Source: Clostridiales bacterium (GTDB lineage: Bacteria > Bacillota > Clostridia > Christensenellales > Aristaeellaceae). From it: DNA of 64,000 nucleotides. The DNA lies in NCBI GenBank assembly GCA_015056155.1, contig SVGU01000001.1, positions 31,961 to 95,960 of the forward strand, given 5' to 3'. The position numbers and the translations under genes were made by a program. Of this stretch, positions 10,446 to 64,000 are shown one piece after another; position 1 is the first letter of the stretch; every line of letters starts with the position of its first letter. The notes under the pieces are model-generated. The model made no database searches. It saw nothing but the letters and a program-made list of their open reading frames with translations, and was not told the origin of the DNA.

Positions 10446-10475
10446 ATTTACACATGCTTGAGAGGAGTTAACGGA

Positions 10476-11879: not shown

Positions 11880-11891
11880 GGGGAGCTTGTT

Positions 11892-12167: not shown

Positions 12168-12209
12168 GCGAGCGTGCGCGCTGCGCATGCAGGAATGGAG
12201 AGTACAACG

Positions 12210-17770: not shown

Positions 17771-17792
17771 GCGCCGCAGAAAGGGGCATCTC

Positions 17793-48378: not shown

Positions 48379-48411
48379 CCTTTCAAAGTCAATCAACAAG
48401 AAAGCAGAAAA

Positions 48412-48476
48412 AAAGGGTGTCGAGAGGGCCGATGGCCCTTCGCGGGGTCAAGGGGCAGCGCCCCTTGCCGTCGGAG
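48412..48476 (+). repeat. GC-rich palindromic dispersed repeat, copy C
   Basis: AAGGGTGTCGAGAGGGCCGATGGCCCTTCGCGGGGTCAAGGGGCAGCGCCCCTTG matches copy A with compensatory arm changes. Confidence 0.75.
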
Positions 48477-48641
48477 ACCTCCCGTCCGCAGACGAAAAAA
48501 TCATGCGCCTTTTCCGAATCCCCGGATTCGGAAAACAGCCGCTCACCCCCAAAGGAAAAGACCAAAAGAGAAAGCCACAAAAGAGGAATGCCGAAAAGCG
48601 CCCCAAAACGCGAGCGCAAATCACAATCCAGAATCCCTCAA

Positions 48642-48670
48642 AGTATAGCACGCCGGAAAAACCATGTCAA
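48642..48670 (-). promoter_or_regulatory. Promoter of the OAH-sulfhydrylase-like gene
   Basis: Minus strand TTGACA - 17 bp - TATACT; lies within IR GCACGCCGG...CCGGCGTGC (48648-48680). Confidence 0.7.
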
Positions 48671-48711
48671 TCCGGCGTGCAGGATGTACTGAATTGAGAA
48701 CAAAAGAGCGG

Positions 48712-49446
48712 TCAGTCCTCCCCGGAAACCGGCGTAGCGCGCAGATGGGAAAACACCTTCCCCACGCTGTCATGCAGCACCAGGTCGGCGGAAGTGTCCA
48801 TGGGCGTCGCGTCCCGGTTGACCAGCACCAGATGCCGTCCGCGGAAGTACCGCACCAGCCCCGCCGCCGGATAGACCGTCAGGGACGTTCCGGCGATGAT
48901 CATCGCGTCCGCCTGCCGGATGTGGTGCACGGCGGAGGACAGCACGTCGTCGTCCAGCCCCTCCTCGTACAAGACGACCTCCGGCTTGATCAGCCCGCCG
49001 CAGCGGCATTTCGGCACGCCCGCGCTGTCCCGGATGAACTCCGGCGGATAGAACGCGGCACATTTCAGGCACCGGTTGCGGTGGATGGAGCCGTGCAGCT
49101 CCAGAACGGTCCGGCTCCCTGCTTTTTGATGCAGCCCGTCGATGTTCTGCGTCACGATGGCGCTCAGGCGGCCTGCCTGCTCCAGCTGGGCGAGGAAGCG
49201 GTGCGCGGCGTTCGGCTGCGCGTCCAGAGGAAGCATCTTGTCCCGGTAGAAGCGATAGAACTCCTCCGTCCGCCGGTGGAAGAAGGTCGCGGAAAGGATC
49301 TCCTCCGGCGGCCAGTCGTACCGCTGATGGTACAGCCCGTCCACGCTGCGGAAATCGGGAATCCCCGACTCGGTACTCACGCCCGCGCCGCCGAAAAAGA
49401 CGATGCGCCGTGAATCGTCAATGATCTGCTGAAGCTCCTCGTACAC
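48712..49446 (-). CDS. Sir2-family NAD-dependent protein deacylase
   Basis: GTG start after GGGAGG; VFFGGAGVSTESGIPDFRS; TQNIDGLHQKAG; ELHGSIHRNRCLKC. Confidence 0.96.
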   Translation of the reverse strand: MYEELQQIIDDSRRIVFFGGAGVSTESGIPDFRSVDGLYHQRYDWPPEEILSATFFHRRTEEFYRFYRDKMLPLDAQPNAAHRFLAQLEQAGRLSAIVTQNIDGLHQKAGSRTVLELHGSIHRNRCLKCAAFYPPEFIRDSAGVPKCRCGGLIKPEVVLYEEGLDDDVLSSAVHHIRQADAMIIAGTSLTVYPAAGLVRYFRGRHLVLVNRDATPMDTSADLVLHDSVGKVFSHLRATPVSGED

Positions 49447-49807: not shown

Positions 49808-51160
49808 TCACTTGCCGACGCAGAACATGCCGAACACCCGGTCCAGCAGGCGCTCCTCGACCTCGTCGCCGGTGATCTCCGCCAGGGCGAGCTGGGCAGA
49901 CTGCAGGTCGATGGAAGCCATGTCCACGGAGAGCATTCCGGCGGTTTCAGCAGCCTGGCGAAGGTGGCGCGCGGCGCGGCGTGCAGCCTCCACATGGCGC
50001 GGCTGGGTCAGGGCGAGGCGGTCGCTGACGGCGGCCTGTTCGGCGAGGTACTGCTTGAGCGGCGCGAGGCTTCCCGCGTCCGCCGCGCTGACCACCATGA
50101 CGGGCGCGTCCGGCAGCAGCGGAGCGACGTCCTTCGGCCCGATGGCGGCGGGCAGGTCAGCCTTGTTCAGCACGACGGCGCAGTTCCGCCCGGCGAGGGC
50201 AGCCAGCAGGGCGTGGTCGTCCCCGTCGGGGGCGCGGCTGGCGTCCAGGACGGCCAGCACCACGTCCGCCTCCTCCATCGCGCGGCGTGCGCGCTGAACG
50301 CCCAGCTGCTCCACCGGGTCGTCCGTGGCGTGGAGCCCGGCGGTGTCCGTCAGGTGGACGACGCTGCCGCCCAGCAGCACCTCGCCCGTTACCATGTCGC
50401 GGGTCGTGCCGGGGATGGGGGTGACGATCGCGCGCTCCTCGCCCAGCAGGGCGTTGAGGAGGCTCGATTTGCCGACGTTGGGCTGTCCGCACAGGGCGAC
50501 GCGCAGGCCGCTTTGCAGGATGCGGGCGGAGCGCTCGTCGCAGGCGGCGTCCAGCTCGTCCGCCAGCGCAGCGGCGCGGGGGATCAGGTCGGAAGCGGCT
50601 TCCTCCTCGGAGATCTCCTCCGGATAGTCGATGCATGCCGCCACGCCCGCCTGCAGCTCGTAGAGCGTATCCGCCGCTTTGCGGATGAACCCGGAGGCGC
50701 CGCCGTCCAGCTGGCGCATGGCCGCGCGGTGGCTCTGCTCGCCCTGCGCGGCGATGAGCGCCATCACGGCCTCCGCCTGGCTCAGGTCGATGCGCCCGTT
50801 GAGGAAGGCGCGGCGGGTGAACTCGCCCGGCTCGGCCAGACGCGCGCCCTCCCGCAGGCAAAGGGCCAGCACCCGCTGGCTCAGGTACGCGCCGCCGTGC
50901 AGCTGCAGCTCCGCCACGTCCTCCCGCGTGTAGGAGCGGGGCGCGCGCATGAGCACCGCCATGCACTCGTCGATGCGGTGTTCGCCGTCCATGACATGGC
51001 CGTAGACGAGCATGTGGCTCGTCAGGGGCAGCGCCTGCTTGCCGGCGGGCCGGAACACGCGCAGCAGGATCGCCTCCGCCTCCGGGCCGCTCAGGCGCAC
51101 GATGGCGACGCCGCCCTGTCCCGGCGCAGTCGCGATGGCGGCAATGGTATCGTTGATCAC
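49808..51160 (-). CDS. mnmE: tRNA modification GTPase MnmE
   Basis: DTIAAIATAPGQGGVAIVRLSG; GQPNVGKSSLLNALLGEERAIVTPIPGTTRD; C-terminal CVGK (FCIGK). Confidence 0.97.
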   Translation of the reverse strand: MINDTIAAIATAPGQGGVAIVRLSGPEAEAILLRVFRPAGKQALPLTSHMLVYGHVMDGEHRIDECMAVLMRAPRSYTREDVAELQLHGGAYLSQRVLALCLREGARLAEPGEFTRRAFLNGRIDLSQAEAVMALIAAQGEQSHRAAMRQLDGGASGFIRKAADTLYELQAGVAACIDYPEEISEEEAASDLIPRAAALADELDAACDERSARILQSGLRVALCGQPNVGKSSLLNALLGEERAIVTPIPGTTRDMVTGEVLLGGSVVHLTDTAGLHATDDPVEQLGVQRARRAMEEADVVLAVLDASRAPDGDDHALLAALAGRNCAVVLNKADLPAAIGPKDVAPLLPDAPVMVVSAADAGSLAPLKQYLAEQAAVSDRLALTQPRHVEAARRAARHLRQAAETAGMLSVDMASIDLQSAQLALAEITGDEVEERLLDRVFGMFCVGK

Positions 51161-52005
51161 AGTGATTCCTCCATATGGGACCAGTATTCCCCGCTGGTCA
51201 TCTTTTCCGCCCATGGGTAGCTGCGGTCGGCGAGCTTCCAGGCCGCCTCATCACCGAAGGAGAGGCCGTTTTCCGCCGCGACCCGCTGCACATGGCGCAT
51301 CAGCTTCAGCACGCCCTGATATTCCGCCGTCAGCAGCACCCTTGCGCACGCGCGGCAGATCTCCGGCGCAGCCTTGCACATGCCGGTGTCGATGAAGGCG
51401 CGCAGCGTCCGGCGGACGTCGTAGGGGACCAAATGCCGCGTCAGGCGCATCGCCCCGCCGTCCGTCTCGAGCACCGCGAAGGGCGCAGCCGCGCCGACGC
51501 CGTCCTCCGCCATCCCGACGCTGCCGGGGTTGAAGGCCCGACGGCCGCCGTGGGTCACGTCCCACTGGTGATGGTTGTGCCCGGAGAGCAGCAGCGTCAC
51601 GCCCTCCGGCAGCGTCTCCAGCACCGCTGGCAGCTCCGGCGGCTGCACCAGATGATAGGGCGCGCCGGGGGTGCCGTGGGTGAAGAGCACCCCGTCCCGG
51701 CGAAGATCCGTGGGCAGACGCAGGTCGATCCCCGCCATCTGCGCCGCCGTCCAGCGCACGGGCGCCCAGTTGTACGCGTCAAATTCGCTGTCCGCGGGCC
51801 GGGTGAGGCGCTCCTCGTGGTTCCCCAGCAGCATCACCGCGCCCAGCGACGCAAGCCGCTGATGGACCTCGCGGCTTTGCGCGCAGAAGCTGACATGATC
51901 CCCCAGGGACACGATCCCGTCGCAGGCCTGCGCCTCCGCCGTGGCCAGCACCGCCTCCAGCGCGGGGAGATTGCCGTGGATGTCCGACACGATCAGCGTC
52001 CGCAT
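51157..52005 (-). CDS. Metallophosphoesterase
   Basis: LIVSDIHGNLPALEAVL; GDHVSF; LLGNHEE; LSGHNHHQW. Confidence 0.92.
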   Translation of the reverse strand: MRTLIVSDIHGNLPALEAVLATAEAQACDGIVSLGDHVSFCAQSREVHQRLASLGAVMLLGNHEERLTRPADSEFDAYNWAPVRWTAAQMAGIDLRLPTDLRRDGVLFTHGTPGAPYHLVQPPELPAVLETLPEGVTLLLSGHNHHQWDVTHGGRRAFNPGSVGMAEDGVGAAAPFAVLETDGGAMRLTRHLVPYDVRRTLRAFIDTGMCKAAPEICRACARVLLTAEYQGVLKLMRHVQRVAAENGLSFGDEAAWKLADRSYPWAEKMTSGEYWSHMEESL

Positions 52006-52078
52006 GCCGCCCACTTCCTTTCATATTTCATATCCTTCATTATACCATGCCCCGCGCGGAAAGCAAGCGTTCGGCCAA

Positions 52079-52115
52079 AAAGCAGAAAAGGCCGCCCGGC
52101 GCTGGGCCGGACGGC
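52079..52115 (-). terminator. Terminator of the phage-like operon
   Basis: Minus strand GCCGTCCGGCCCAGCGCCGGGCGGC then CTTTTCTGCTTTTT. Confidence 0.65.
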
Positions 52116-52125
52116 ATGGGTTGGG

Positions 52126-52362
52126 TCAGTATTCCATGGCGCGGGCGGAGTCTGCTGCGCCTTCGGTCGTGGGGTCGATCACCACGCCCAGGCCGCTCAG
52201 CAGCGTCAGCACGGCAGTCACCAGCTGCATCACCGCGTCCTCCGTCACCGAGGGGACGACGTCCAGCATGGCCAGCACGTCAAAGGCGAATGCGCACACC
52301 GTCGCGGCCATGGTCATCAGCCAGACCCGGTTGCGGAAACGTACCTTCCAGTTGATCTTCAT
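52126..52362 (-). CDS. Phage holin (phi LC3-like)
   Basis: MKINWKVRFRNRVWLMTM...LLSGLGVVIDPTTEGAADS. Confidence 0.88.
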   Translation of the reverse strand: MKINWKVRFRNRVWLMTMAATVCAFAFDVLAMLDVVPSVTEDAVMQLVTAVLTLLSGLGVVIDPTTEGAADSARAMEY

Positions 52363-52384
52363 CGTGTTCCTCCTTTCTGTTGCC

Positions 52385-52618
52385 TCATGGCTTGTGGTAT
52401 TCCTTCAGGTCGCGCACCTCGTGCTCCATTTCGGTCATCCGCCCCTCCAGGCGGAAGGTGCGCTCGATCACCTGATTGTGCTTCCCGACCTGCTCCTCCA
52501 GGCGCTTGAGCCGGTAGGCGGTCAGGGACGAGGTGGCCATCACGCCGCCAAGGCTCCCCAGCAGCGTGCATGCGCCGGAGATCACGGCCACCAGGATCGC
52601 CTCACTCACAGCCTTCAC
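52385..52618 (-). CDS. Small phage protein, N-terminal TM plus coiled coil (XhlA/lysis-accessory-like)
   Basis: N-terminal hydrophobic segment, then LKRLEEQVGKHNQVIERTFRLEGRMTEMEHEVRDLKEYHKP, next to holin. Confidence 0.55.
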   Translation of the reverse strand: MKAVSEAILVAVISGACTLLGSLGGVMATSSLTAYRLKRLEEQVGKHNQVIERTFRLEGRMTEMEHEVRDLKEYHKP

Positions 52619-53258
52619 CTCCCAGCGCCGCCCAGGTCTTCGGGCCGACGATCCCGTCGCGCTCCAGGCCGCAGCGGCTCTGATAGGTCTTCACGCAGTT
52701 TTCCGTGATGTATCCGAAGATGCCGTCGATCTCCAGCTCGTACCCTTCGTCGCGCAGCGCGCGCTGGAGCGCCTTGACGTCGCTGCCCCGGCTCCCGCGC
52801 CGCAGGCAGGCGCTCACGGGCAGCCGCTCCGCGCCGGACTCCATATCCACCGCCGACAGCACGCCCCAGTACTGCCATTTGCCGAGCTTGCTGTCGGCCC
52901 GGACGCGCATGCCGTCGGTGGATGCGTGGACGATGCGGAGGGGATCGACACCCGTGACCAGCCCGATGTGGCAGAAGTCGCCGAGGTCGTCGGAGAATTT
53001 CTCCGGGGTCTTTTCCTTCCATTTGAAGACGGCCATGCCGGGGCGAAGGTCGCCTACGGAGAGGATCAGCCCCTTTGCGAAGAGATATTTGCGCCAGATG
53101 GTGTTGCTGCCGTGGTAGATGCGTGCGCCCTGGCGGCGGTATGCGCGCACGAACATGCCGGAGCAGTCGATCCCCCGCTCGTCGTTGGAGCCGGGGGACA
53201 CATAGGGCCAGCCGATGCAGGCCTCGAAATCAGCGATCAGCTGCTGAAGATCAAGCAT
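52602..53258 (-). CDS. Endolysin: NlpC/P60-like amidase/peptidase + peptidoglycan-binding domain
   Basis: GIDCSGMFVRAYRRQG; HIGLVTG; C-terminal GSDVKALQRALRDEGYELEIDGIFGYITENCVKTYQ. Confidence 0.88.
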   Translation of the reverse strand: MLDLQQLIADFEACIGWPYVSPGSNDERGIDCSGMFVRAYRRQGARIYHGSNTIWRKYLFAKGLILSVGDLRPGMAVFKWKEKTPEKFSDDLGDFCHIGLVTGVDPLRIVHASTDGMRVRADSKLGKWQYWGVLSAVDMESGAERLPVSACLRRGSRGSDVKALQRALRDEGYELEIDGIFGYITENCVKTYQSRCGLERDGIVGPKTWAALGGEGCE

Positions 53259-53306
53259 CGCCGGCACCTCCCTGATGATGGTTGCGGTTCATGGTTTCCT
53301 CCTGGT

Positions 53307-54698
53307 TCAGATCTTTTCGATCACTTTCATCGCGACGCTTGTGTTGACCGCGCCTTCATTGGGGAAGACGGTGAAGGTGTGCCGCCCGGCGGTGATCACG
53401 CCGAGGTCGTTTCGCTTCAGGTAGGGCAGCGCGTCGAAGCTGCCGTCTGCATAGACGACGCCGGGGACCTCGTTGCCGTCCACGCTGACGCCCACGACGC
53501 GCACGCCGTCGTCGGGATCGAAGCGCATCGTGCAGGCGAGGACGGCGGCCCAGTCCTCCGTGTGGAAATAGTGGACGATGGGGCTGGCGGCGGTGCCTTC
53601 TGCGCGGTTCTCGAAGGTCACGTCGGTCACGCGGCCGCCGATGAGGTGGCTTGCCATCACCTCGCGCAGCATGTCCGCGATCTCGTCCGATGCGTCGTGC
53701 ACCCGGCTGCACAGCGTGACCGTGACCTGCCCGGGCGCGCCGAACACGTCCGGCTTGCGCAGCCCCGTCACCCGCTCGTGCATCACCATGCCGTATTCGG
53801 GCATGGCCAGGCGGCACATGCGGCCGAGGCGGAAGCTGTCCGCGTCCTCGCCGGTCATGGCGCTCAGGTCGAGGGCGTCTGCGGTCACGCTGACGGCGGG
53901 GACGCTGTGGCGCTCCAGGTACTTTTCGGCGACGGACTTCAGCGTGGGCATGTCGAAGATGGTGTTTGCGGTGAAGGTGCGGCAGACGCGTCCCCACTGG
54001 CTGACGGCGGCGGATTCGAGCCAGTCCGTGCCTGTCAGGGGCGTAAGGCTGATGCGCTCGGTGCCCTGCCCGGCGCCGTAGGGGTAGACCCGCGTGCACA
54101 GGTCGGATGCGTCCATGGCGATCTGCACCCCGGAGAGGTTCCGGCTCAGGCGGCCCTCGCAGGCGTCGGCGTCGCTCATCTGCCGCAGGTGCATCACCCA
54201 TGCCTGGCTGCTCTGCTCGCATTGCAGCATCAGCGTGTCCGGCAGCATGTCGATCAGGTTCATCAGCGCTGTGAGCAGGTTCGTGCAGCCGCAGGTGAAG
54301 ATCACCGTCGTTTCCGCCGGAAGCTCGAGATCGCCCAGCACCCAGCGCATCGCCGCCTGATGGGACAGGAGCCGGTCGATGACGGACTGCGGCGTGCCGG
54401 TCAGGCTCATCGCGGGAACCACGCCGTCGGCCAGGGTCGCCAGCGAATGCTCCAGATACACCGTCCGGATGAGACCGGGCTGCAGGTCAACGCCGGTGAC
54501 GCGGAAGATCCCGACGCTGCCCGCTTCGTCGAACAGCTCGATCAGGTCGCGCACAGCCACGGCAGGGTCGGATTCCGGAAGGTGCATCACCGCCGTGGAC
54601 AGCGGGCGCAGCTGCAGATCCAGCGTCAGCCGGGTCGGGGACAGGCGGGCGCGCTCGCGAAGGCCTGCGTCCAGCAGCCTTGGCAGCCGTATGGTCAC
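53307..54698 (-). CDS. Phage tail-associated/Tal-like minor structural protein
   Basis: GTG start; position after Dit; beta-rich, receptor/endopeptidase-tail-like architecture. Confidence 0.65.
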   Translation of the reverse strand: MTIRLPRLLDAGLRERARLSPTRLTLDLQLRPLSTAVMHLPESDPAVAVRDLIELFDEAGSVGIFRVTGVDLQPGLIRTVYLEHSLATLADGVVPAMSLTGTPQSVIDRLLSHQAAMRWVLGDLELPAETTVIFTCGCTNLLTALMNLIDMLPDTLMLQCEQSSQAWVMHLRQMSDADACEGRLSRNLSGVQIAMDASDLCTRVYPYGAGQGTERISLTPLTGTDWLESAAVSQWGRVCRTFTANTIFDMPTLKSVAEKYLERHSVPAVSVTADALDLSAMTGEDADSFRLGRMCRLAMPEYGMVMHERVTGLRKPDVFGAPGQVTVTLCSRVHDASDEIADMLREVMASHLIGGRVTDVTFENRAEGTAASPIVHYFHTEDWAAVLACTMRFDPDDGVRVVGVSVDGNEVPGVVYADGSFDALPYLKRNDLGVITAGRHTFTVFPNEGAVNTSVAMKVIEKI

Positions 54699-55453
54699 AG
54701 CAGCCGCCCCCTTCCGCTGAAGACAGCCTGTACGGGCTGGTCAGCCGTCACGCTCACGGGCGTTGCGGCGCCGCCGTCCGCCAGCAGCAGGTCGCTGGAG
54801 TCGCCGCTGCGCAGCATCAGTGCGCCCGTGCCGTTCGCGTCCGCATAGAGCAGGCCGTCGGACATGCCGAGGGTGAATTTCTTTCCGGCGGCGAGGGAGA
54901 GGCCGGAAAAGGTCATCTGCGTATCGCCGCAGCGCAGGGTGAGCGTCGTCAGTGCGGCGGAGCCGTTGTTGGTCACGACCGCGCCGACCGGGCATTCGTC
55001 GGCGTTCCCGGGGAGGGTGAGGGTCGCGCTGCTGCCGGTGGTGACCTTCGCGGATTCGTCCGTCTCCCAGAAGGGGACGGCGTAGGCGGTGAACTCGATG
55101 GCAAGCTCGTCCGTCCAGCACAGCGCGCTCATGGTCGGCAGCGTGTCGCACTGTACGGTCAGGTGCTGCCCGGGGCGGTCGCTCACGGTCAGCAGCCCGC
55201 CGGGTTCCGCCCAGCGGTGCAGGGCCTGCAGCACCGTGCGGCGGCGGACCGGGTCCTCCTCGGCAATGAGGAAGCTGACCCGGACGGTCAGACTCTCGCG
55301 GACGCGCCGGAGCAGCCGCAGGCCGTGGCGCGCGGTGGGGACCGTCACGACCCTGCGCCGGGGCGGCAGCTCCGTCAGGTCGGTCACGCGGACAGCCGGG
55401 TCGATGCTCGCGGGCGAAATGCCGTTGAGCGTGCAGGAAAAGCGTTCGTTCAA
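54695..55453 (-). CDS. Distal tail (Dit)-like protein
   Basis: TTG start with AAGGAGGT RBS; NERFSCTLNGISPASIDPAVRVTDLTELPPR...; AIEFTAYAVPFWE typical of Dit. Confidence 0.65.
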   Translation of the reverse strand: MNERFSCTLNGISPASIDPAVRVTDLTELPPRRRVVTVPTARHGLRLLRRVRESLTVRVSFLIAEEDPVRRRTVLQALHRWAEPGGLLTVSDRPGQHLTVQCDTLPTMSALCWTDELAIEFTAYAVPFWETDESAKVTTGSSATLTLPGNADECPVGAVVTNNGSAALTTLTLRCGDTQMTFSGLSLAAGKKFTLGMSDGLLYADANGTGALMLRSGDSSDLLLADGGAATPVSVTADQPVQAVFSGRGRLL

Positions 55454-55659
55454 GGGGTGTACCTCCTTTGTCTTGCAATGCGGGCGATGGCTGCGGAGAG
55501 CCTCGGCGTGAGCATTTCGCACAGCGCGTCTGCGTCGGGGAAAGCGGGGGATTGGGCGGATTCGCTGCCTGCCCGCCCGGTCGGGGACGGCAGCGGCGTG
55601 CGCAGCTCAGCGGCGGGAAGCGTCCAGCTGCGGATCGCCGGGAAGGACTGGTCAGTCAT
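55450..55659 (-). CDS. 69-aa protein at the tape-measure position
   Basis: Start/stop overlaps with both neighbours (ATGA and TTGA). Confidence 0.6.
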   Translation of the reverse strand: MTDQSFPAIRSWTLPAAELRTPLPSPTGRAGSESAQSPAFPDADALCEMLTPRLSAAIARIARQRRYTP

Positions 55660-56167
55660 CGGCAGCGCCTCCTTTCATGGGCCGGAGCGTCCGGGGCATG
55701 CCGCCGGGAGCGCCGCCGCCGTCCTCCTCCGGGAAGAGAGAGAGAGCATCGGGCAGGGCTTCGTCGCCGCAGATGCGCCACATCAGCTGCAGCGCGTAGC
55801 GGGCCATGGCCTGCTGCTGCCGTTGATGGGCGATCAGCTGCGCCAGCGCGTCCATCGTGGGCGGAAAATGGCACTGACAGAGCGCCTGCAGCACCTCCGC
55901 CGGGCTGCACTGCCCGCAGATATGGAAAAATGCCAGCGCCTCGCGGTCGAAGCACTGGCGGATGGTCTCGGTGGTCAGGTCGCTGCCGCCCAGCAGGGAC
56001 ACGGCTGCTGCCGCGTCCTCCGGGTGGGCATGCAGCGTAAGGGAGAGCACGTCGTACCGCGCATCCGATTCGCCGTCGGAAAAGGCGGATACGGCGCGGC
56101 GGACGACGGCATCGCGGGACAGGCGGCACAGGTGCGGCGTCAGGGCGCACAGGGTCGTTACAGTCAT
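55652..56167 (-). CDS. Phage tail-assembly protein (chaperone-like position)
   Basis: Overlaps neighbours; location between tail tube and Dit. Confidence 0.5.
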   Translation of the reverse strand: MTVTTLCALTPHLCRLSRDAVVRRAVSAFSDGESDARYDVLSLTLHAHPEDAAAAVSLLGGSDLTTETIRQCFDREALAFFHICGQCSPAEVLQALCQCHFPPTMDALAQLIAHQRQQQAMARYALQLMWRICGDEALPDALSLFPEEDGGGAPGGMPRTLRPMKGGAADD

Positions 56168-56736
56168 GTCGTCGCCTCCTTCGGCCACAGCAGGCGGCAG
56201 GGGAGGCCAGCGGTGTTCGTCCTGTGTGCCAGCAGCGTGAAGGGCATTTCGCCAAAGCCGCTTCGGGCGGTGCGCAGCGCCATGCCGCCGGTGCTGACGG
56301 GGCAGTGCAGCTCAATGGCCATCAGCCCGGAGCCGGTCATGCCGAACCAGCAGAGGTTGTCAGCGGAAGCCGCGAAAACCGGGGGACAGGGCGGAGCCAT
56401 CGGCGCGCTCTGCGGCAGGTTCAGCAGCATAGCGGCGTTGCCGGGGCTGATCTCCAGGAGCGTGCCGGACAGGGTGACCGTCCAGCGGCGGACGAGGGTT
56501 TCGCCCGGCATGGGAGTGCGGCAGCCGCGGGTCGTGTCGAGCATGTCCGGCGTGCAGCGGAAGACGCAGCCGTCCCGGGTCGCGCCCAGCAGACGGCTTT
56601 CGTCCTGCATGGCCTGCGCCAGCGCGGCGGCGGGATCATTCGCGTTCATCACGCCGTCCGCGTCAACGCCGCGCAGCAGCACGCCCTCGCCCAGCTGCAG
56701 GTGGGCGCCGGCGGAAGTGTGAATGGAATCAAGCAT
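56164..56736 (-). CDS. Putative major tail/tail tube protein
   Basis: Order after tail-completion protein; beta-rich 190 aa. Confidence 0.5.
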   Translation of the reverse strand: MLDSIHTSAGAHLQLGEGVLLRGVDADGVMNANDPAAALAQAMQDESRLLGATRDGCVFRCTPDMLDTTRGCRTPMPGETLVRRWTVTLSGTLLEISPGNAAMLLNLPQSAPMAPPCPPVFAASADNLCWFGMTGSGLMAIELHCPVSTGGMALRTARSGFGEMPFTLLAHRTNTAGLPCRLLWPKEATT

Positions 56737-56754
56737 GTGGGTGCCTCCTTTGGC

Positions 56755-57126
56755 TCATTTGTGCGCCAGCCGCAGGGCCAGGCGGATGCGGACGCCCATC
56801 GCGCCCCGCTTTTCGGGGAAGGACAGGAGCCGTTCGTCCGGGCGGAAGACGGCGGCGATCCCGCCTGGAAGCGGCAGCAGCCGGCCGCCGGGCGGAACGC
56901 ACTGAAGCAGCCGGTCCGCCATGAGCAGGCGCTCTGCGTGGGGAATGTCCGGGGTCGTCCACAGGGTCAGCGTGATGCTGCCTGCGCCGGCGTATGTGGC
57001 GGGCGGGTCGATCAGGCAGGTGACCAGGGGCAGCGCGGCGGCGGCGGGGACTGCGTCCTGCGGATATGCGGTGAAGCCGGACTGCTCCAGCAGCGCGCGC
57101 AGGCGGTCGTAGAGCGACATCAGCAT
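56755..57126 (-). CDS. Putative tail completion/terminator (neck) protein
   Basis: MSLYDRLRALLEQSGFTAYPQDA...LTLWTTPDIPHAERLLMADRL; positional (start could be 57120). Confidence 0.5.
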   Translation of the reverse strand: MLMSLYDRLRALLEQSGFTAYPQDAVPAAAALPLVTCLIDPPATYAGAGSITLTLWTTPDIPHAERLLMADRLLQCVPPGGRLLPLPGGIAAVFRPDERLLSFPEKRGAMGVRIRLALRLAHK

Positions 57127-57551
57127 GGCGTCACCAGCCTTTTGGGGTACATGCGCCTGTACGGCGCAAGGGCGGAGGCGAACACCTTCGTCCAGTCCGC
57201 GCAGTTCGGACTGCGGCTGACGTCGCCCAGATGCTCGCTGACGGTCGTGGGGTAGGGGTGCTTCTCCGTCCAGTCGGCGATCTCGGCGCACAGGCGCAGG
57301 AAACCGGCGGGGGGCGACAGGCGGCAGATGCAGCCCGTCCATTCGGCGCTGCCTGCGCCGGGGATCGCGCCGTTTTCGTCCAGCTGCCATACGCCGCGGG
57401 CGGGGCCTTCTGAGATGGCGATCCATTCGCCGGGATAGAAGTGGGAGGCGGGCTGAAGCATGTCGTCAGCGAGCGTCCAGCGGGTGCAGACCTGTTCAGC
57501 CGGGAAATAGTTGCGGACGTGACGCATCACATCCGGTACGGTAATGATCAT
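57120..57551 (-). CDS. Head-tail connector-like protein
   Basis: MIITVPDVMRHVRNYFPAEQVCTRWTLAD...; immediately downstream of capsid gene. Confidence 0.55.
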   Translation of the reverse strand: MIITVPDVMRHVRNYFPAEQVCTRWTLADDMLQPASHFYPGEWIAISEGPARGVWQLDENGAIPGAGSAEWTGCICRLSPPAGFLRLCAEIADWTEKHPYPTTVSEHLGDVSRSPNCADWTKVFASALAPYRRMYPKRLVTPC

Positions 57552-57625
57552 GTGAACCTCCTGTATTGGGGTCGGTGAGGTACAGAAAAAGAGGCTCCCC
57601 CGGAGAAGGAGGAGCCCCTGAAGGA

Positions 57626-58438
57626 TCAGCCGGTGATGGTGTAGACGCACACGGCCGCGGGCAGCACGACCTTCGCGCCGCTCAGGCACAGACCCTTCAC
57701 GCCGTCGCTGAAGCCGCGCTCGGGACGGTAGGCGTCCACGCGGGTGATCTGGTTGGCGAAGGTGACTGCTTCGGGGATCATGGCGATGATCTCCTTGCTC
57801 AGGTCGGCGCTGATGTAGATGTCGAAGCCGGCCGCGCGGGCGACGGAGCCCTCGGTCAGGCGGTGCGCCGCGTCGGAGGTGCCGGTGACGAAGCGGTTGT
57901 CCAGCAGCAGCTCCGTCTCCAGCGCGGGAGGCAGCACCAGCTTGCGGTCGCTGCGGGGAACGCCTGCGGTGTCCATCACGTCCTTGATCTGCAGCAGCAG
58001 CGCATACAGGCCGCCGTCGCCTTCGCTGGGGATGGCAGCGCTCTTCTTCACGCCTGCGCCGCTGCGGATGACGGACAGGATGTAGGTCTCCGCGTCGCGG
58101 GCCAGGCGCTCGGCGGCGTTCTTCATCGCCGCGTCCATCAGGTCGGCGCGGGCCTGCACCGCATCCACGTCGTTGATGCGGAAGTTGTAGTAGGCGCCGT
58201 GGTCGATGGTCAGGGTGGTGTCGGTGCCGGAAAGCTCCTCGGGATCGTCGATGGCGACGCTGGGGTCGTAGGCCTTGACGGTGATGTCGTTGATGGTGTT
58301 GATGTGCACGGTGTCGCCCCACTGGCGGATGTCGCCTTCATAGCTGCGGTTGCACAGCAGGCCGAAGACCAGCGCATGCTGGAGCTTCTCCTGCAGACGG
58401 GCGGACCAGACCTGGGGGATGAAATTGGAAATAGCCAT
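57626..58438 (-). CDS. Major capsid protein (P22-coat/HK97-like)
   Basis: MAISNFIPQVWSARLQEKLQHALVFGLLCNRSYEGDIRQWGDTVHINTINDITVKAYD. Confidence 0.85.
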   Translation of the reverse strand: MAISNFIPQVWSARLQEKLQHALVFGLLCNRSYEGDIRQWGDTVHINTINDITVKAYDPSVAIDDPEELSGTDTTLTIDHGAYYNFRINDVDAVQARADLMDAAMKNAAERLARDAETYILSVIRSGAGVKKSAAIPSEGDGGLYALLLQIKDVMDTAGVPRSDRKLVLPPALETELLLDNRFVTGTSDAAHRLTEGSVARAAGFDIYISADLSKEIIAMIPEAVTFANQITRVDAYRPERGFSDGVKGLCLSGAKVVLPAAVCVYTITG

Positions 58439-58484
58439 ATGTGTGATTCCTCCTGAAATATCAATATTGATCGTATGTTTGGTG

Positions 58485-59066
58485 TTATCTGCGCTGCATC
58501 AGCGCGGAGCGTACCTGGCTCCAGTTGCGGTTGATCTCCTCGGGGGACATGAGGCGCACATCGTCGGGCGAAAGTGCGCTGCCGTCCAGCGGCGGGGAGA
58601 CGCGGTCGGTCGGGATGGGAACGGGGGATGAGAAGAATGCGCCGTACTGGCTGACAACGGGGGAGATGACGTCTGCATCCGCCCGGAGCTCGGTGCCGTT
58701 CCAGTCCTCCTCGGTGGTCTGTACGGCGCGGGCCAGCAGGGGCAGGGCCTGCTCGTTCGCGCCTGCGCGGCGCAGCAGCTCGCAGATGGCGTCTGCCCGG
58801 CCCTGGGCGGTCCGCTCGGTGTGGACCTGCTGGCGGAAGGTCTCCAGCTCGGTGCGGAGCTGGTCTGCCTCCTGCTGGAATGCGCCGGCTTCCTCGCGGA
58901 ACCGGTCGCGCTCGGAGGCGGTCTGTTCGTGTGCCGCGGCAGAGGCGAGGGCTTCGTCGCGTTCGGCCTTGAGGGCCTGTACGGTCTCCGCATGGGCGGC
59001 AATGATGCGTTCGATGCTTTCGTCGGTCAGCTGAAGCTCGCGGAGGAGCTTGCGGGTCAGGGACAT
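58485..59066 (-). CDS. Scaffolding protein (GP20-like)
   Basis: Long coiled coil LKAERDEALASAAAHEQTASERDRFREEAGAFQQEADQLRTELETFRQQV; between portal and capsid. Confidence 0.75.
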   Translation of the reverse strand: MSLTRKLLRELQLTDESIERIIAAHAETVQALKAERDEALASAAAHEQTASERDRFREEAGAFQQEADQLRTELETFRQQVHTERTAQGRADAICELLRRAGANEQALPLLARAVQTTEEDWNGTELRADADVISPVVSQYGAFFSSPVPIPTDRVSPPLDGSALSPDDVRLMSPEEINRNWSQVRSALMQRR

Positions 59067-59114
59067 GGGTCCCTCCTTTCTGTGCATTTCGCTGCACGCA
59101 AAGGGGCAGGCGCG

Positions 59115-60485
59115 TTACTCTGCGTCTGCCCGGCTGCCCGGCGCTGCGCTGTGCAGCAGGCCGGGGATGTGTTCGTCGGAAATGTAGGGATTGAGGCGCA
59201 GCGCCGTCTCCTGGTCGATGTCCTGCCGCATCACGGCGATGTCGGCGACCGTCTCGGATTCGTTGGCGATGGCCTGTCGCTTGAAGCGGACGTTCTCACA
59301 GGGGCAGCCGATGAGGCGGAGCAGCTCGGTGATGAACTGCCGCACCTGCCATTCGTAGCGGTCGGCCTTCAGGTTGAGGTTCGCGGCGGCCACGCGGATG
59401 GCGACGTTCGTGAGGCTGGAGCCGGTGAGCGCGTCCATGTCCAGGGCCATGTAGTCCTGGTAGAGGCTGCGCTCGAGCAGGTCGAGGGCGGCTCGGCGAG
59501 CGGCGTAGGGCACCTCGATGGTCTTCGGCTCGGCGGATGCGCCGCTGCCCGTTCCGTCGGACAGATTGGCGACTGCCTTCACGCGGTTGATCTGCTCAAG
59601 CATTTCGGCCACGTCGTCCATCGTGCCGCCGAAGTTGTTCAGCACCCAGTAGACGTCGTTGGCGCGGTCGAGGTTGTCGGCGAAGTCGGAGAGGATGGCG
59701 TCATACGCGTCGATCTTGGCGCGGATGGCGGGGGTGAATTCGCTCAGCCCGTCGCTGTTGGCGCGCAGGGGAATGAGCGGCAATCGGCCGTAGCCGGGCT
59801 CGGTGCGGGTGGTTTCGCCCAGGGCGTCGCGGCGCAGGCTGCGGCGGTAGGGCTGGCAGGGCGTCATGAGCGTCAGACCGTCGCCGTCCTGCCGCATGAG
59901 CGTCACACCCTCCTGCGAAAACACGCGCAGGTACATCGGCCGGTCGGCGGCCAGCTGCCAGAACTGCACGCCGAGCATCGCTTCGCCCGTCATTTCGTCC
60001 AGCAGCGGGAAAAAGCCGCTCCAGCTGTTGCGGGCGGCCTCGATCACTTCGATATGGTCGGCGTTCCAGTAGCCCCAGGCGCAGCCGTGCAGCAGCGCGC
60101 GCTCGCCCAGCCGCTCCAGCTGATGGTCGAAGTCCGCGCCGAGGCGGCGCTTGACCTCCTGCGGCAGGCTCACGCCCTCGGACAGCAGGAACTGGTTCTG
60201 CTGGGTCACGAAGCGGAACAGGAAGCTGCTGCCGATGCGGTTTCCTACCACATCCTCTGCGGCGGAGCGCACGCGGCGGCGGCCCTGGGCGTCGCGGGTC
60301 TCGATCTTCCGGGCGCGCAGGATGGTCTTGCGCGCCACCTGCGTGTTTTCGCCCCGGAAGTAGCAGTTGGCCTCCAGTGCATGCTGAAAGCCGCGCGACG
60401 CCTTGTAGCGCTTTACCGCCTCCAGCAGCAGCGTGGGCTGGTCCTGTGCGCCGAGGTAGTCCTGATAGGTGACAGTGGTGAACAT
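59115..60485 (-). CDS. Portal protein (SPP1 gp6-like)
   Basis: 456 aa; NRIGSSFLFRFVTQQNQFLLSEG, GCAWGYWNADHIEV, SDFADNLDRANDVYWVLNNFGG. Confidence 0.88.
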   Translation of the reverse strand: MFTTVTYQDYLGAQDQPTLLLEAVKRYKASRGFQHALEANCYFRGENTQVARKTILRARKIETRDAQGRRRVRSAAEDVVGNRIGSSFLFRFVTQQNQFLLSEGVSLPQEVKRRLGADFDHQLERLGERALLHGCAWGYWNADHIEVIEAARNSWSGFFPLLDEMTGEAMLGVQFWQLAADRPMYLRVFSQEGVTLMRQDGDGLTLMTPCQPYRRSLRRDALGETTRTEPGYGRLPLIPLRANSDGLSEFTPAIRAKIDAYDAILSDFADNLDRANDVYWVLNNFGGTMDDVAEMLEQINRVKAVANLSDGTGSGASAEPKTIEVPYAARRAALDLLERSLYQDYMALDMDALTGSSLTNVAIRVAAANLNLKADRYEWQVRQFITELLRLIGCPCENVRFKRQAIANESETVADIAVMRQDIDQETALRLNPYISDEHIPGLLHSAAPGSRADAE

Positions 60486-60518
60486 TGGTTTATCTCCTTA
60501 TATGGTTCGTTGGGGGAT

Positions 60519-61760
60519 TCAGCCATGGCGGTCCATGGCGCGGAGCAGACAGGCGGCGCTGTCGGGCGCGTCGTCGTGGGCGGCGTCCGGCGTGTAGTCC
60601 AGGATCTGGTCGATATACGCGCGGTCTGTCCCCTTGATGAACACGGCGTCCGGCCACCATTTTCGCAGCCATGTGCCGATTTTGATGTGCTTGTTCGTCT
60701 GCTCCGTATAGGTGCGGACGGCCGCGCCGCGCCGACGGAGCTCCCGGGCCACATAGCCCTTGTCGCCGTTGGTCTCGCAAAGGATCGGCGCGCATTGCAG
60801 CCGATCGCATTCTGTGATGATCTCGTCCATCACAGCGTCCACCGGCTTACGCCAGAGGCGGCCGTACAGGAAGGCGTGATGCCCGTCGATGCGTCCGCAG
60901 GTCAGGGCAGTGAAATCGCTGCCGCCGTAGGCCGCGTCGATGTGCGCCATGCCGTCCCGCAGCAGCAGGGGGTCGCCGTCCTCCGGCGGGCGCTGCCCAA
61001 AGAGCGCTTCCTCTGCCGCGATGTGCTTCAGCTCATAATTCGCCGCGAACAGCGACGGCGTCATCGACCGCTGCAGCGCCTTTAGCTTGCCCTCGCTCAG
61101 CAGCCCCGTGCGCCAGCAGTCGTACCTGCGCACGTTGGGCATCAGGGAGATCGCGTCCTCCGGGTGCCAGGGCGTGCCGGTGTTGATGATGCGGCCGCCG
61201 GGGTTGCGGATGTTCTGCAGCTCCTGATAGACTCCGCGGATACGCCGCCGTTCTGTGCCGGAGCTGCGGTCGTGCAGGTTGACGATGTCGTCCGTCAGCA
61301 CGATGTCCGCGTGCTTGCCCGTCAGGGAACCGAGGGTTCCCAGGCCCAGCAGCTGCGATGCACCCCTGGGGGCGGAAAAGCAGGTGGTGTGCACGGTGTA
61401 CATGTCGCTGCGCAGCAGCTGCACGGGCTCGTCGTAGATGCATGCGCTCAGATACTGCATGGCGTCCGTGCGCAGGAGCATCTTCACCTGCCGCAGCACC
61501 TCGACCACATCCTCGTCCGTCTTGCGCAGGAAGATGATGTTCTTCGTCGGGTACAGCAGGAGCATCGCCGTCATCGAGAAGGCGAGGCAGGTCGTCTTGT
61601 AGCTGCCGCGGTGGGCGAGCAGCGTCATGTCGTCCCGGCCGGCGATCATGTCCCGGAGCCATATCCCGTGGAGCCCGTCCGTCAGCCGGTCAAGTCCGCA
61701 CCACCGCGCCGCCAGTGCCGGGCGGGTCAGGAGCAGCTCAATGGCTGTCCGACGGTGCAT
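60519..61760 (-). CDS. Terminase large subunit
   Basis: LAHRGSYKTTCLAFSM (Walker A-like), DIVLTDDIVN (Walker B), nuclease Asp IDAAYGGSDFTAL and CETNGDKGYVARELRRRG. Confidence 0.93.
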   Translation of the reverse strand: MHRRTAIELLLTRPALAARWCGLDRLTDGLHGIWLRDMIAGRDDMTLLAHRGSYKTTCLAFSMTAMLLLYPTKNIIFLRKTDEDVVEVLRQVKMLLRTDAMQYLSACIYDEPVQLLRSDMYTVHTTCFSAPRGASQLLGLGTLGSLTGKHADIVLTDDIVNLHDRSSGTERRRIRGVYQELQNIRNPGGRIINTGTPWHPEDAISLMPNVRRYDCWRTGLLSEGKLKALQRSMTPSLFAANYELKHIAAEEALFGQRPPEDGDPLLLRDGMAHIDAAYGGSDFTALTCGRIDGHHAFLYGRLWRKPVDAVMDEIITECDRLQCAPILCETNGDKGYVARELRRRGAAVRTYTEQTNKHIKIGTWLRKWWPDAVFIKGTDRAYIDQILDYTPDAAHDDAPDSAACLLRAMDRHG

Positions 61761-62001
61761 CGTCCGCCTCCTGCGGCCGGGTGAGCTCCCGGACGGCGGC
61801 TTCGATCTCAGCGATCAGCTCCGGCTTGTAACCGGCGCTTTCCTTCGGTGTGAACAGGCTGTGGTATTTCGCCAGCTGTTCAGCCGCCTTGAGCTGCTCG
61901 CTGGTCTTCTCGCTGCGCATCAGCTGCGTGAAGGTCTCCAGCACTTCGTCCGGCGTGGCAATGTCCGGCTCGTATTCAGCTGGGTTCATGTCGGTGTTCA
62001 T
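61738..62001 (-). CDS. Putative terminase small subunit
   Basis: DEVLETFTQLMRSEKTSEQLKAAEQLAKYHSLFTPKE; upstream of terminase large gene. Confidence 0.65.
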   Translation of the reverse strand: MNTDMNPAEYEPDIATPDEVLETFTQLMRSEKTSEQLKAAEQLAKYHSLFTPKESAGYKPELIAEIEAAVRELTRPQEADDAPSDSH

Positions 62002-62198
62002 CCTTTCTATATAATGTAGTGTTCCGTACGGATGGGAACAGAAAAGGCGCTCTCCGCGAAGGAGAACGCCTGAATGTTTGCGTGGAATGGGAATGCTTGT
62101 TCTGTTTTCCACGATACCATCATACCACGGATGGGGTGATAATGCAAGCTAATCTTTGCTGAACTTTGTCAGCCGGTGACAGCCTGCGTCAATCCATG

Positions 62199-62594
62199 TC
62201 AGCCGACCTGCGCGATATAGTCGTTGCGGATCTGGTTGATCCGCGCGCGGCTCATGCTGAGCTTGCGGGCGATATCTGTGTCGGTGGAGGCCTGCAGGTA
62301 ATAATTCTGAATGACCATAAAGGTGCGGAAGTTGCCGATCTGCGACAGGAGCATCCCCACCGGAACGGCGAGGTCTGCAAGCTCTGTGCGCTTGCGGTCC
62401 ATCATCTCCTCGATCCCGTCGGACGCCTGCATCGCTGCCGCGACCGGGTCATTCGTGCCGGGCAGGGTGTCGAGCCGGAGCCCGGCGGCTCCCCTCGGCG
62501 TTCCGCTGGAGCCGGTCCTGTCCAGCTGCACCGCCAGGTCGTGAAGGTCGATCACCGCTGCCCGATAAGCCTGCAGCATTTCCAGATTCGTCAT
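62199..62594 (-). CDS. Phage sigma-70-region-4/RinA-like regulator (DUF1492-type)
   Basis: C-terminal HTH FMVIQNYYLQASTDTDIARKLSMSRARINQIRNDYI. Confidence 0.7.
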   Translation of the reverse strand: MTNLEMLQAYRAAVIDLHDLAVQLDRTGSSGTPRGAAGLRLDTLPGTNDPVAAAMQASDGIEEMMDRKRTELADLAVPVGMLLSQIGNFRTFMVIQNYYLQASTDTDIARKLSMSRARINQIRNDYIAQVG

Positions 62595-62660
62595 ATGTCA
62601 TCATCCTCCTCAGATGTGGAATGCATAGGGAACACATATTCGGTATGTGAACTTGAGGTT

Positions 62661-62689
62661 ATTATATAGCACCTGCTGGTTTATGTCAA
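62661..62689 (-). promoter_or_regulatory. Consensus promoter of the phage-like structural operon
   Basis: Minus strand TTGACA - 17 bp - TATAAT (perfect hexamers). Confidence 0.85.
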
Positions 62690-62712
62690 GCAGAAAATTA
62701 AACTTTTGGGTA

Positions 62713-62741
62713 TTGCAAAATGAAACCACAGGTTATATAAT
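62713..62741 (+). promoter_or_regulatory. Promoter of the XRE-ImmA pair
   Basis: TTGCAA - 17 bp - TATAAT, divergent to the structural-operon promoter. Confidence 0.75.
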
Positions 62742-62759
62742 GTAGAAGAGGTGATCAAC

Positions 62760-63101
62760 ATGCTTGCAGATCGTATCAAGGAACTTCGCCTGAAGGCAGG
62801 GATGTCGCAGCAGCGGCTGGGCAGCCTGATGGGCGTATCGGCGGTGGCCGTAGGCAAATGGGAGCGCGGGCAGACGCAGCCGGACATCGCAACGCTGACC
62901 CGTCTGGCTGACCTGTTCGGCACGACGATGGACGAGCTGTGCGGCCGAGATGTGCGGGAGACGCCGCAGGAGGGCAGCATCAGCATCATGACCCGCGCCT
63001 TCCGCCAGCTCACGCCCGACGAGCAGGAGAAGTACATCGCCGTCGGCAGGGCGCTGTTTGCGCATGCCTTTGACGCGGCGGAGGGGAAGGGGCAGCCGTG
63101 A
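62760..63101 (+). CDS. XRE-family repressor (ImmR-like)
   Basis: ADRIKELRLKAGMSQQRLGSLMGVSAVAVGKWERGQTQPDIATLTRLADLF. Confidence 0.95.
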   Translation: MLADRIKELRLKAGMSQQRLGSLMGVSAVAVGKWERGQTQPDIATLTRLADLFGTTMDELCGRDVRETPQEGSISIMTRAFRQLTPDEQEKYIAVGRALFAHAFDAAEGKGQP

Positions 63102-63661
63102 CCGGACTTCCTGACCTTTTCCGTGCTGCCCGAATGGCATACCGCGTCATTGCGGCCCGCGGGATCACGGCTTTGCCGGTGCATCCGCTCCCGATCCTCC
63201 GGGCTTGCCGCGATACCACGGTCATGACCGGGGAAGAGGCGGCGGAGCAGATCGGGATGCGGCCGCATGAATTCGAGCGGTTCTTCGACCGGGCGGACGC
63301 GTTCACCCTGCGTCAGGAAGCGGCGGGGAAGACGAGGTACATCGTCGTCTACCGGCCGGGCGGGAATCCGGAGCACCTACGCTTCACCCTCGCGCACGAG
63401 CTGGGCCACCGGCTCCTCGGGCACACAGGCGCCGGCCAGTCGGAGGAGCGCGAGGCGGATTGCTTCGCGAGCCATCTGCTCTGCCCTCAGCCATATATAG
63501 ATGATATGAGGGAACAGCACGGAGAACTGTGTGCGGAACAGATCGCCCAGGCGTGCTATGTTTCCATCGCCTGCGCCCGGAATCTGGCGCGCCGTCCGAG
63601 GTATCCGGAGGAGGATCCGGTGCTGTTGCGGGTGAAGGCGCTGCTGACGACCAAAGAATAG
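63098..63661 (+). CDS. ImmA/IrrE-family metallopeptidase
   Basis: ATGA-type overlap with repressor; HELGHRLLGH zinc motif; EREADCFASHLLCP. Confidence 0.95.
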   Translation: MTGLPDLFRAARMAYRVIAARGITALPVHPLPILRACRDTTVMTGEEAAEQIGMRPHEFERFFDRADAFTLRQEAAGKTRYIVVYRPGGNPEHLRFTLAHELGHRLLGHTGAGQSEEREADCFASHLLCPQPYIDDMREQHGELCAEQIAQACYVSIACARNLARRPRYPEEDPVLLRVKALLTTKE

Positions 63662-63811
63662 CGGGAATCCTGCGCCAAAAAACCCGAACGATCGCTTGAA
63701 GCTGAATGCCAAAACGATGCGAATCCCCGGACACACAAAGCGCTGAAGGCAAGATGCCGTTCGCAAAACGAAAAAGAAGGCAAAAAAGTCGAAAAAAAGT
63801 GAAAAAAGGTG

Positions 63812-63840
63812 TTGACGAAAGTCTGGAACCGTGATATTAT
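63812..63840 (+). promoter_or_regulatory. rRNA operon promoter with upstream phased A-tracts
   Basis: TTGACG - 17 bp - TATTAT; A-tracts starting at 63771, 63782, 63792, 63802. Confidence 0.8.
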
Positions 63841-63984
63841 AACCAAGCTGACTCGCGCGGCCGCAAGCCGCAGGGGTGAGCACTGAACCTTGAAAACGAT
63901 ACAGAACAGAAATAACGCAAACAAGAGACAGTAATTCCGAATGAGTTGAACTTGGCCGGTGAGACCGGTTAAGGATAAAGGATT

Positions 63985-64000
63985 AAACGCAAGAGTTTGA
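63985..64000 (+). rRNA. 16S rRNA 5' end (truncated by the window edge)
   Basis: ...AACGCAAGAGTTTGA matches the conserved 5' AGAGTTTGA of 16S. Confidence 0.85.

Follow-up and report, generated by a model that had tools for sequence, protein, structure and literature searches.

The phage cassette in the 64,000-nucleotide stretch of DNA analysed here (the window) is likely to be what remains of a siphophage, domesticated and passed on vertically, and to encode a gene transfer agent (GTA)-like particle rather than an ordinary prophage. We label it a GTA-like viriform, a variant within the already known GTA kind. What is shown is the gene set, its single-copy inheritance at the same locus, purifying selection, a tree congruent with that of the host, SOS boxes shared with lexA and recA, a sister genus (g63) whose genes are divided between loci bearing this box, and erosion of the tail.

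The cassette comprises 16 minus-strand genes (52126–62594) with one promoter and a divergent XRE–ImmA pair (Table 1). The initial annotation, made from sequence alone, had placed a regulator, terminase, portal, scaffold, capsid, connectors, tail, endolysin and holin here. This gene set held, as did the perfect-consensus promoter and the divergent pair; the count of about 14 genes is corrected to 16, and the statement that the frames are intact held only in part, as the window copy has lost its stopper gene. The absence of an integrase held for the locus, and the PF00589 matches of this genome are all on contigs other than the window's. No replication genes flank the cassette, and no att-like direct repeat of at least 11 nt was found between its immediate flanks. 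The criterion for a functional temperate prophage (integrase, att sites and a replication module) is unmet. Observations that would have refuted domestication (a nearby integrase or replication module, att sites, or variable presence with frameshifts) were looked for, and none applied genus-wide.

The adjoining rRNA operon also proposed by the initial annotation held as adjacency. The window ends where the contig ends, at the 5′ end of a 16S rRNA gene; no rRNA gene was detected inside the window, only this 5′ end and the leader at its last bases, and 64 nt of 16S lie at the matching place in the relative G016. On the other side, the metallophosphoesterase and mnmE order is found on one contig in G001, G011, G016 and G017, with partial evidence from G005 (up to the phosphoesterase), G013 (an adjoining lysin fragment) and G008 (mnmE). 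Within the cassette, the sigma-like regulator was found in every genus member with that stretch assembled, the G009 counterpart of the chaperone-like protein matches phrog_18646 (function unknown), and the hairpin after the capsid gene could be an attenuator.

Table 1 Features of the cassette and its flanks, in window positions
Feature	Position	Strand	Evidence or remark
16S rRNA gene 5′ end	63988–64000	+	CGCAAGAGTTTGA at contig end; remainder past contig end; transcribed away from capsid operon
rRNA operon leader	63757–63991	+	Two other contigs of same genome end in copies (99% and 88%)
ImmA-type metallopeptidase	63098–63661	+	Peptidase_M78 E 9e-10; HELGH motif
XRE/Cro-CI repressor	62751–63101	+	HTH_3 E 5e-16
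Candidate XRE operator 1	62724–62734		AACCTGTGGTT; AACY-N3-RGTT palindrome
Operon sigma-70 promoter	62661–62689	-	TTGACA-N17-TATAAT; 12/12 consensus match
Candidate XRE operator 2	62671–62681		AACCAGCAGGT; between -35 and -10; imperfect
Candidate XRE operator 3	62650–62660		AACCTCAAGTT; at expected transcription start
LexA (SOS) box	62629–62642		CGAATATGTGTTCC; one mismatch; 18-19 nt past -10
Sigma-70-region-4-like regulator (sig)	62199–62594	-	Weak Pfam/PHROG matches
Small terminase TerS	61738–62001	-	phrog_51 E 2e-4; start by codon-usage call
Large terminase TerL	60519–61760	-	phrog_38 E 4e-63
Portal	59115–60485	-	SPP1_portal E 2e-30
Scaffold	58485–59066	-	Phage_scaffold E 1e-6, slightly under Pfam cut-off; phrog_1793
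Major capsid protein	57626–58438	-	P22/HK97-type; phrog_267 E 4e-49
Terminator-like hairpin 3′ of capsid gene	57590–57619	-	Consensus scan
Head-completion adaptor	57120–57551	-	In-frame fusion to last residues of deleted stopper gene; stopper identity by fold
Tail-terminator-like connector	56755–57126	-	Position and conservation only
Major tail (tube) protein	56164–56736	-	phrog_885 E 4e-5 here; 6e-32 in G009
Tail-assembly-chaperone-like protein	55652–56188	-	Position between tube and Dit
Probable tape measure remnant (C terminus), 69 aa	55450–55659	-	Aligned with 464-, 164-169- and 92-aa tape measures
Distal tail protein Dit	54695–55453	-	Model pLDDT 90; SPP1 Dit match E 6e-11, TM about 0.7
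Tail-associated hub/endopeptidase Tal	53307–54698	-	Prophage_tail E 5e-18
Endolysin, NlpC/P60-like and PG-binding	52602–53258	-	Domain matches; start by codon-usage call
Small membrane protein of lysis module	52385–52618	-	phrog_1863 E 1e-12
Holin	52126–52362	-	Phage_holin_1 (PF04531) E 2e-22
Intrinsic terminator closing operon, 3′ of holin	52091–52115	-	10-pair stem and T run
Host flank: metallophosphoesterase and mnmE	49808–52014	-	Outside element; gene order kept in relatives

The genus to which the window belongs consists of ruminant-gut Clostridia. TerL is present as a single copy in 16 of its 18 genomes and the capsid gene in 15 of 18; no copy was detected in G002 and G004, whose assemblies are 88% and 87% complete. 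The same rRNA leader adjoins the element in all 15 members in which the start of the locus is assembled, and the mnmE flank is kept in most of clade 1. Element proteins are 64–85% identical across the genus, and the capsid spans the same range across 15 species with core frames intact. A host tree built from mnmE and rpoB agrees with the element tree (Mantel r 0.79, p 0.0005), with clades largely matching. In the TerL tree, multi-copy prophages of the same family and the domesticated lineages fall into separate groups, with support of 0.93; the element trees were made with FastTree, and single domestication is supported by this tree only, the portal tree placing G219 closer to the prophages. 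ComEC is encoded in 16 of the 18 genomes, and its presence is no more than permissive for transfer to recipients.

Because NG86 dN/dS estimates take no account of codon bias and saturation, we trusted close pairs alone. In the closest unsaturated pair the structural genes gave values of 0.04–0.3, and every comparison was below 1; closest-pair values were 0.044 for the capsid, 0.040 for the major tail protein (MTP), 0.10 for TerL, 0.11 for the portal and 0.013 for the XRE repressor. Element values exceed those of mnmE where both are comparable, some small connector and chaperone genes reach 0.8, and the portal of G019 is broken by a stop. Single-copy presence at the same locus, together with vertical inheritance and purifying selection, argues for domestication, and supports that part of the initial reading.

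The ancestor was a siphophage rather than a podovirus, because the Dit fold matches that of SPP1 and both a stopper fold and a major tail protein are present; a podovirus-derived origin was rejected on the same three features. The earlier label of a short-tail phage therefore failed as to origin: the relatives are siphophages and the short tail is derived. From this long-tailed ancestor the tail was lost stepwise, the tape measure falling from 464–501 aa in related prophages to 164–169, 92, 56–71 and 45–55 aa, then to zero. Stopper, tube and tape measure have been lost in several lineages, which are left without tail genes normally required for injection; holin and endolysin are kept in most members. 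In the window copy, an in-frame deletion of ~340 bp removed the head-to-tail stopper gene, which is retained in all other members of the genus where this part of the locus is assembled. An assembly error is not excluded here, and it is possible that the window copy is inactive given this loss.

The sister genus g63 has the same genes, again in single copy, at two unlinked loci, whereas in the window's own genus they are all in one place. All ten g63 genomes with TerL have one capsid gene, on another contig, and host genes surround both loci; the long contigs with host genes on either side measure, for example, 90 and 200 kb in G173 and 84 and 60 kb in G175. The idea that g63 holds a motor-only relic was rejected once the capsid half was located at the second locus.

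The operon promoter is kept in nearly all genus members. As the standard for LexA boxes we used RAAC-N4-GTTY, which equals the boxes at the lexA and recA promoters of the same genomes. The criterion for a LexA regulon is met: the box is exact in 17 of 34 promoter regions at loci A and B, against 0.74 expected, and the window's box is one mismatch off. Five g63 genomes have an exact box at locus B; none was found at the locus-B promoters of G174, G177 and G181, and in some relatives, as in the window, the box is degenerate. The XRE operators are proposed from palindromes alone, without a shuffle test. Operator 1 is missing from the three members that lack XRE–ImmA, and the XRE-bearing G013 has no operator by the strict pattern. 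Stress induction, part of the earlier reading, is an inference from sequence that the LexA boxes support and with which an XRE–ImmA switch and its candidate operators are compatible. The element also satisfies those GTA criteria that can be judged from sequence: it keeps phage genes for head, packaging and lysis but none for integration or replication, is inherited vertically at a conserved site and is under purifying selection, and in g63 its dispersed genes share control.

We hypothesize that in undamaged cells XRE, together with LexA at the nearby box, would hold the consensus promoter closed. DNA damage would remove LexA, and cleavage of XRE by ImmA would free the second lock. Scaffold and capsid protein would then build small heads on the portal, and TerS and TerL would load them with any DNA present; as the element has no means of excision or replication, most of this would come from the host chromosome. 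Dit and Tal would seal the particle, forming either a bare baseplate or a tail of very small length, and the cell would be lysed by holin and endolysin. Particle formation, random packaging, delivery to recipients, repressor binding and the ImmA step are all inferred, as no particle, expression or packaged DNA has been observed; the earlier suggestion that host DNA may be packaged likewise remains an inference. A bolder reading, on which we are evenly divided, is that of a siphophage-derived GTA family in Gram-positive gut Clostridia that is turning near tail-less species by species (tape measure 166, 92, 69, 51 or 0 aa, then tube loss), with heads, packaging motor and baseplate under selection and with the two clusters split in the sister genus joined as one regulon by LexA boxes.

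The cassette could instead be a domesticated PBSX-like weapon or lysis device: the SOS-induced particle or the lysis genes would kill neighbouring cells, or lyse the producer itself as a source of public DNA or in altruistic death, and no DNA would be delivered to recipients. The SOS box and the retention of holin and endolysin in most members fit this possibility, and the loss of stopper, tube and tape measure in several lineages would impede injection. However, TerL and portal, which are useless for killing, are strongly constrained by purifying selection in the closest pair and kept even at a separate g63 locus, and PBSX-type killing uses a contractile tail, which is absent here. Slow decay of an ordinary cryptic prophage would account for the missing stopper in the window, the tail genes missing in several members, the stop in the G019 portal and the two genomes without a detected copy. 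We consider it unlikely in view of intact core frames in 15 species, a single copy at one locus, a host-congruent tree, core-gene dN/dS far below 1, conserved promoter and control sites, and split loci with a common control site.

Two further explanations are very improbable. One is that the element is satellite-like or depends on a helper, and packages either its own DNA or that of a partner. A terminase, portal and capsid of its own without replication genes recall capsid-forming phage-inducible islands, but there is no integrase, excisionase or attachment repeat, inheritance is vertical at one locus, and the g63 genes at split loci could not package themselves as a single unit. The other is that broken assemblies or several unrelated phages, not one divided gene set, explain the g63 split. 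All these genomes are fragmented assemblies, but both loci are flanked by host genes inside long contigs and 10/10 genomes have one capsid copy.

The GTA-like cassette can be compared with several known systems, of which FpGTA and RcGTA come closest. Related to it are siphovirus-like prophages of the same family (G312, L103/L104), with TerL 58–62% and portal 49–52% identical and adaptor, stopper, MTP, chaperone, tape measure, Dit and Tal in the same order. They differ in capsid type, in their full 464–501-aa tape measures and in lying near further phage genes (ParB-like), and one genome holds two copies. A phage database search gave only distant matches (best 31–43% identity), and a close free phage relative is not excluded. 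PBSX of Bacillus subtilis is domesticated and damage-inducible without a working integrase and, as here, has terminase, portal, capsid and lysis genes. It is a much larger cluster with a long contractile sheathed tail and a large tape measure, and it kills rather than injects. The PBSX-like criterion of a sheathed contractile tail and long tape measure is unmet here, as no sheath gene was matched in the cassette and the tape measure is a 69-aa remnant.

RcGTA-type GTAs of Alphaproteobacteria share a siphophage-like set of head, adaptor, stopper, tube, Dit and hub, as well as vertical inheritance and more than one locus; their recipients take up DNA through competence proteins. The host phylum is different here, and XRE–ImmA and LexA boxes are found instead of GafA/CtrA-type control, none of which was seen. 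The RcGTA tape measure is also shortened (about 216 residues by segments in PMC7296036), whereas here it is cut much further or absent.

FpGTA of Faecalibacterium prausnitzii (PMC12946183) likewise has an operon of about 10.5 kb with TerS, TerL, portal, scaffold and capsid, no replication genes, a Gram-positive gut anaerobe as host and a tail that is very short or unseen; several strains carry a second unlinked operon of baseplate and lysis genes, resembling g63. FpGTA is described as podovirus-like, whereas Dit, Tal, MTP and a shrinking tape measure show a siphophage origin for our cassette, and the rRNA-linked single piece, LexA boxes and XRE–ImmA also set it apart. Particles and packaged DNA have been demonstrated for FpGTA and not for this cassette, and the likeness drawn here rests on gene content and organization. 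No paper on the cassette genes of this lineage was found in the literature searched. In the 2026 report (PMC12946183), PBSX is the one GTA-like system of Gram-positive bacteria counted as known before FpGTA, and Christensenellaceae are found to package random host fragments, the responsible genes not being identified. In an apparently related lineage, the cassette offers a concrete candidate for packaging machinery of this kind, and comparison of its species provides a natural series in which the tail of a domesticated phage is lost and control passes from the phage repressor to the host SOS system.

The cassette held up: the initial annotation had described a phage-type capsid cassette, which is present as stated and, with the additions made here, comprises 16 consecutive phage genes (see table). 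The operon begins at a single perfect promoter and ends at a terminator, and the XRE and ImmA genes are transcribed in the opposite direction. The window ends with its contig (G000:C129, 95,960 bp) in a sequence that recurs at other contig ends and consists of a 16S leader and the first 16S bases; Rfam detected the 16S start at the equivalent place in the relative G016. The window's sole Rfam match is a T-box leader.

Features of the cassette, its surroundings and related loci
Feature	Locus	Position	Strand	Remark
Phage genes 1–16	Window	62594 down to 52126	−	Regulator at start, holin at end
Genes 1–8	Window		−	Sigma-70-region-4-like regulator, TerS, TerL, portal, scaffold, capsid, adaptor, tail terminator
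Genes 9–16	Window		−	Major tail protein, chaperone-like protein, 69-aa protein, Dit, Tal, endolysin, small membrane protein, holin
Promoter	Window	62689–62661
T-box leader	Window	37305–37546	+	RF00230
Sir2-type deacetylase and O-acetylhomoserine sulfhydrylase genes	Window	48001–49446	−	Near mnmE
Same two genes	L098 (G173)	12–1319, 17030–17782		Near g63 locus A
Insertion	L034 (G016)	10111–12403		ECF-like sigma factor and 587-aa protein, between holin and metallophosphoesterase
Stop in portal frame	L039 (G019)	5838–5842		Leaves 333- and 105-aa parts

A capsid search of 61 genomes was followed by TerL and capsid profile searches of 309 genomes of the family. TerL is present in one copy in 16 of the 18 genomes of the window's genus, and capsid in 15 of 18; most other genera among the 309 gave no match. 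TerL relatives are multi-copy in genera such as g46, the pattern expected of ordinary prophages. The start of the element adjoins the same rRNA leader in all genus members in which it is assembled (15/15), and in clade 1 the other flank is usually metallophosphoesterase–mnmE (G016 carries an insertion there). The hosts are metagenome-assembled Clostridia or Clostridiales (one labelled Christensenellaceae), many of them recovered from the guts of deer, goats and sheep. A concatenated TerL–portal–capsid tree recovers the clades of the mnmE plus rpoB host tree, namely (G007,G010)+G000, (G016,G017)+G005, (G008,G014) and the G006/G012/G009/G015 group, with slight shifts of G001, G011, G003 and G013 (Mantel r 0.79, p 0.0005). 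The least diverged pair, G012 and G006 (dS ~0.2), gives dN/dS values of 0.013 (XRE), 0.04 (capsid and tube), 0.10 (TerL) and 0.11 (portal); values for more diverged pairs are higher, still <1. This pattern of inheritance and constraint is unlike that of a decaying prophage.

In the sister genus g63, the genes are divided between locus A (ImmA–XRE–regulator–TerS–TerL–portal, alone amid host genes) and locus B (scaffold, capsid, neck, Dit, Tal, lysin and holin), and capsid is single-copy in 10/10 genomes having TerL. Both loci are flanked on both sides by host genes in long contigs of several genomes. With the set divided in this way it cannot pass on as a phage; both halves nevertheless persist. 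Contiguous versions occur in G219 (genus g66) and G019 (g3), the latter with a broken portal frame. All these lineages cluster together, apart from prophages, in the TerL tree (support 0.93); the position of G219 is less clear in the portal tree. The deacetylase and sulfhydrylase genes that lie near locus A in G173 and near mnmE in the window hint at a common ancestral neighbourhood.

The siphovirus-like prophages L104 and L103 of G312 encode tape measure proteins 464 and 501 aa long, respectively. These compare with 164–169 aa, both ends kept, in G009, G012, G006 and G015, 92 aa in G219 (ending EPISRGLARQAYARRYGL), and a probable remnant of 56–71 aa in the window's clade (ending, for example, EPAISAAIARKARQRRYTP); in g63, pieces of 45–55 aa are assigned by position only. 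G005, G016 and G017 have no tape measure, tube or chaperones, and in G008 and G019 the tube is followed directly by Dit. A fold match to SPP1 Dit (E 6e-11) confirms the identity of Dit in the element. Relatives encode a 112–115-aa protein between adaptor and terminator that matches phage stoppers by fold, including those of SPP1 and RcGTA, the gene transfer agent (GTA) of Alphaproteobacteria. The window genome lacks this gene through an in-frame deletion of ~340 bp that fuses the adaptor to the stopper's last residues. Because the stopper is also absent from G019 and G182, and tape measure and tube are lost elsewhere, we regard neck and tail gene loss as a trend across lineages.

GAAC-N4-GTTC-like boxes occur at the promoters of loci A and B, in genomes whose lexA and recA promoters carry CGAACATATGTTTGA- and GCAAACATATGTTCGC-type boxes, respectively. 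Exact RAAC-N4-GTTY is found in 17/34 element regions, versus 0.74 expected from dinucleotide shuffles; the window's own LexA box, CGAATATGTGTTCC, has one mismatch. Among the XRE-bearing genus members, all except one have the box starting ~18–19 nt downstream of the −10. The three members without XRE–ImmA also lack its AACY-N3-RGTT palindromes, and in two of them the box starts 2 nt after the −10, from which we infer that LexA took over from the phage repressor. No SOS box was found at the locus-B promoters, upstream of scaffold, of L179 (G177) and L180 (G181), which have in common an ATGTCC-rich stretch and a GTGCTCAnnTGGGCAC palindrome; control of locus B may differ there.

The element retains SOS control and the genes for filling heads and for lysis, and lacks genes for mobility and self-replication. 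The simplest function would be stress-triggered packaging, into a particle, of DNA resident in the cell, most of it from the chromosome. This is inferred from gene content; particles, their DNA content and transfer have not been shown. Recipients could import the DNA through ComEC (present in 16/18 genus genomes), on the model of RcGTA, whose DNA is imported by competence proteins (PMC7296036). Whether almost tail-less particles could deliver DNA at all is the open point of this reading, and its main rival is a killing or DNA-release role for the particle and lysis genes. For the window's copy, inactivity is another possibility, as is an assembly error at the stopper deletion. We consider the element GTA-like by four tested features, and leave its membership of the GTAs in the strict sense open.

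Other capsid clusters were also met. A podovirus-like cluster (L044 of G051, L261, L262, L263 and L264; family f16, genus g35), with capsids 66–86% identical between species and parC adjoining in three, may be a further GTA-like element from the same order. L043 (G052:C54, family f17) holds a contractile set like that of PBSX, the B. subtilis phage-like element (sheath-like 362 aa, tube-like 147 aa, tape-measure-like 936 aa), with adjoining host genes and a capsid 40% identical to the window's.

The nearest known system, by gene organisation and with no sequence comparison behind the likeness, is FpGTA of Faecalibacterium. The study describing FpGTA also lists Christensenellaceae, without naming genes, among taxa with random packaging (PMC12946183). 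FpGTA is encoded by one 10.5 kb operon, to which several strains add a second, 5.5 kb operon of baseplate and lysis genes, and its heads are ~40 nm with no visible tails (PMC12946183).
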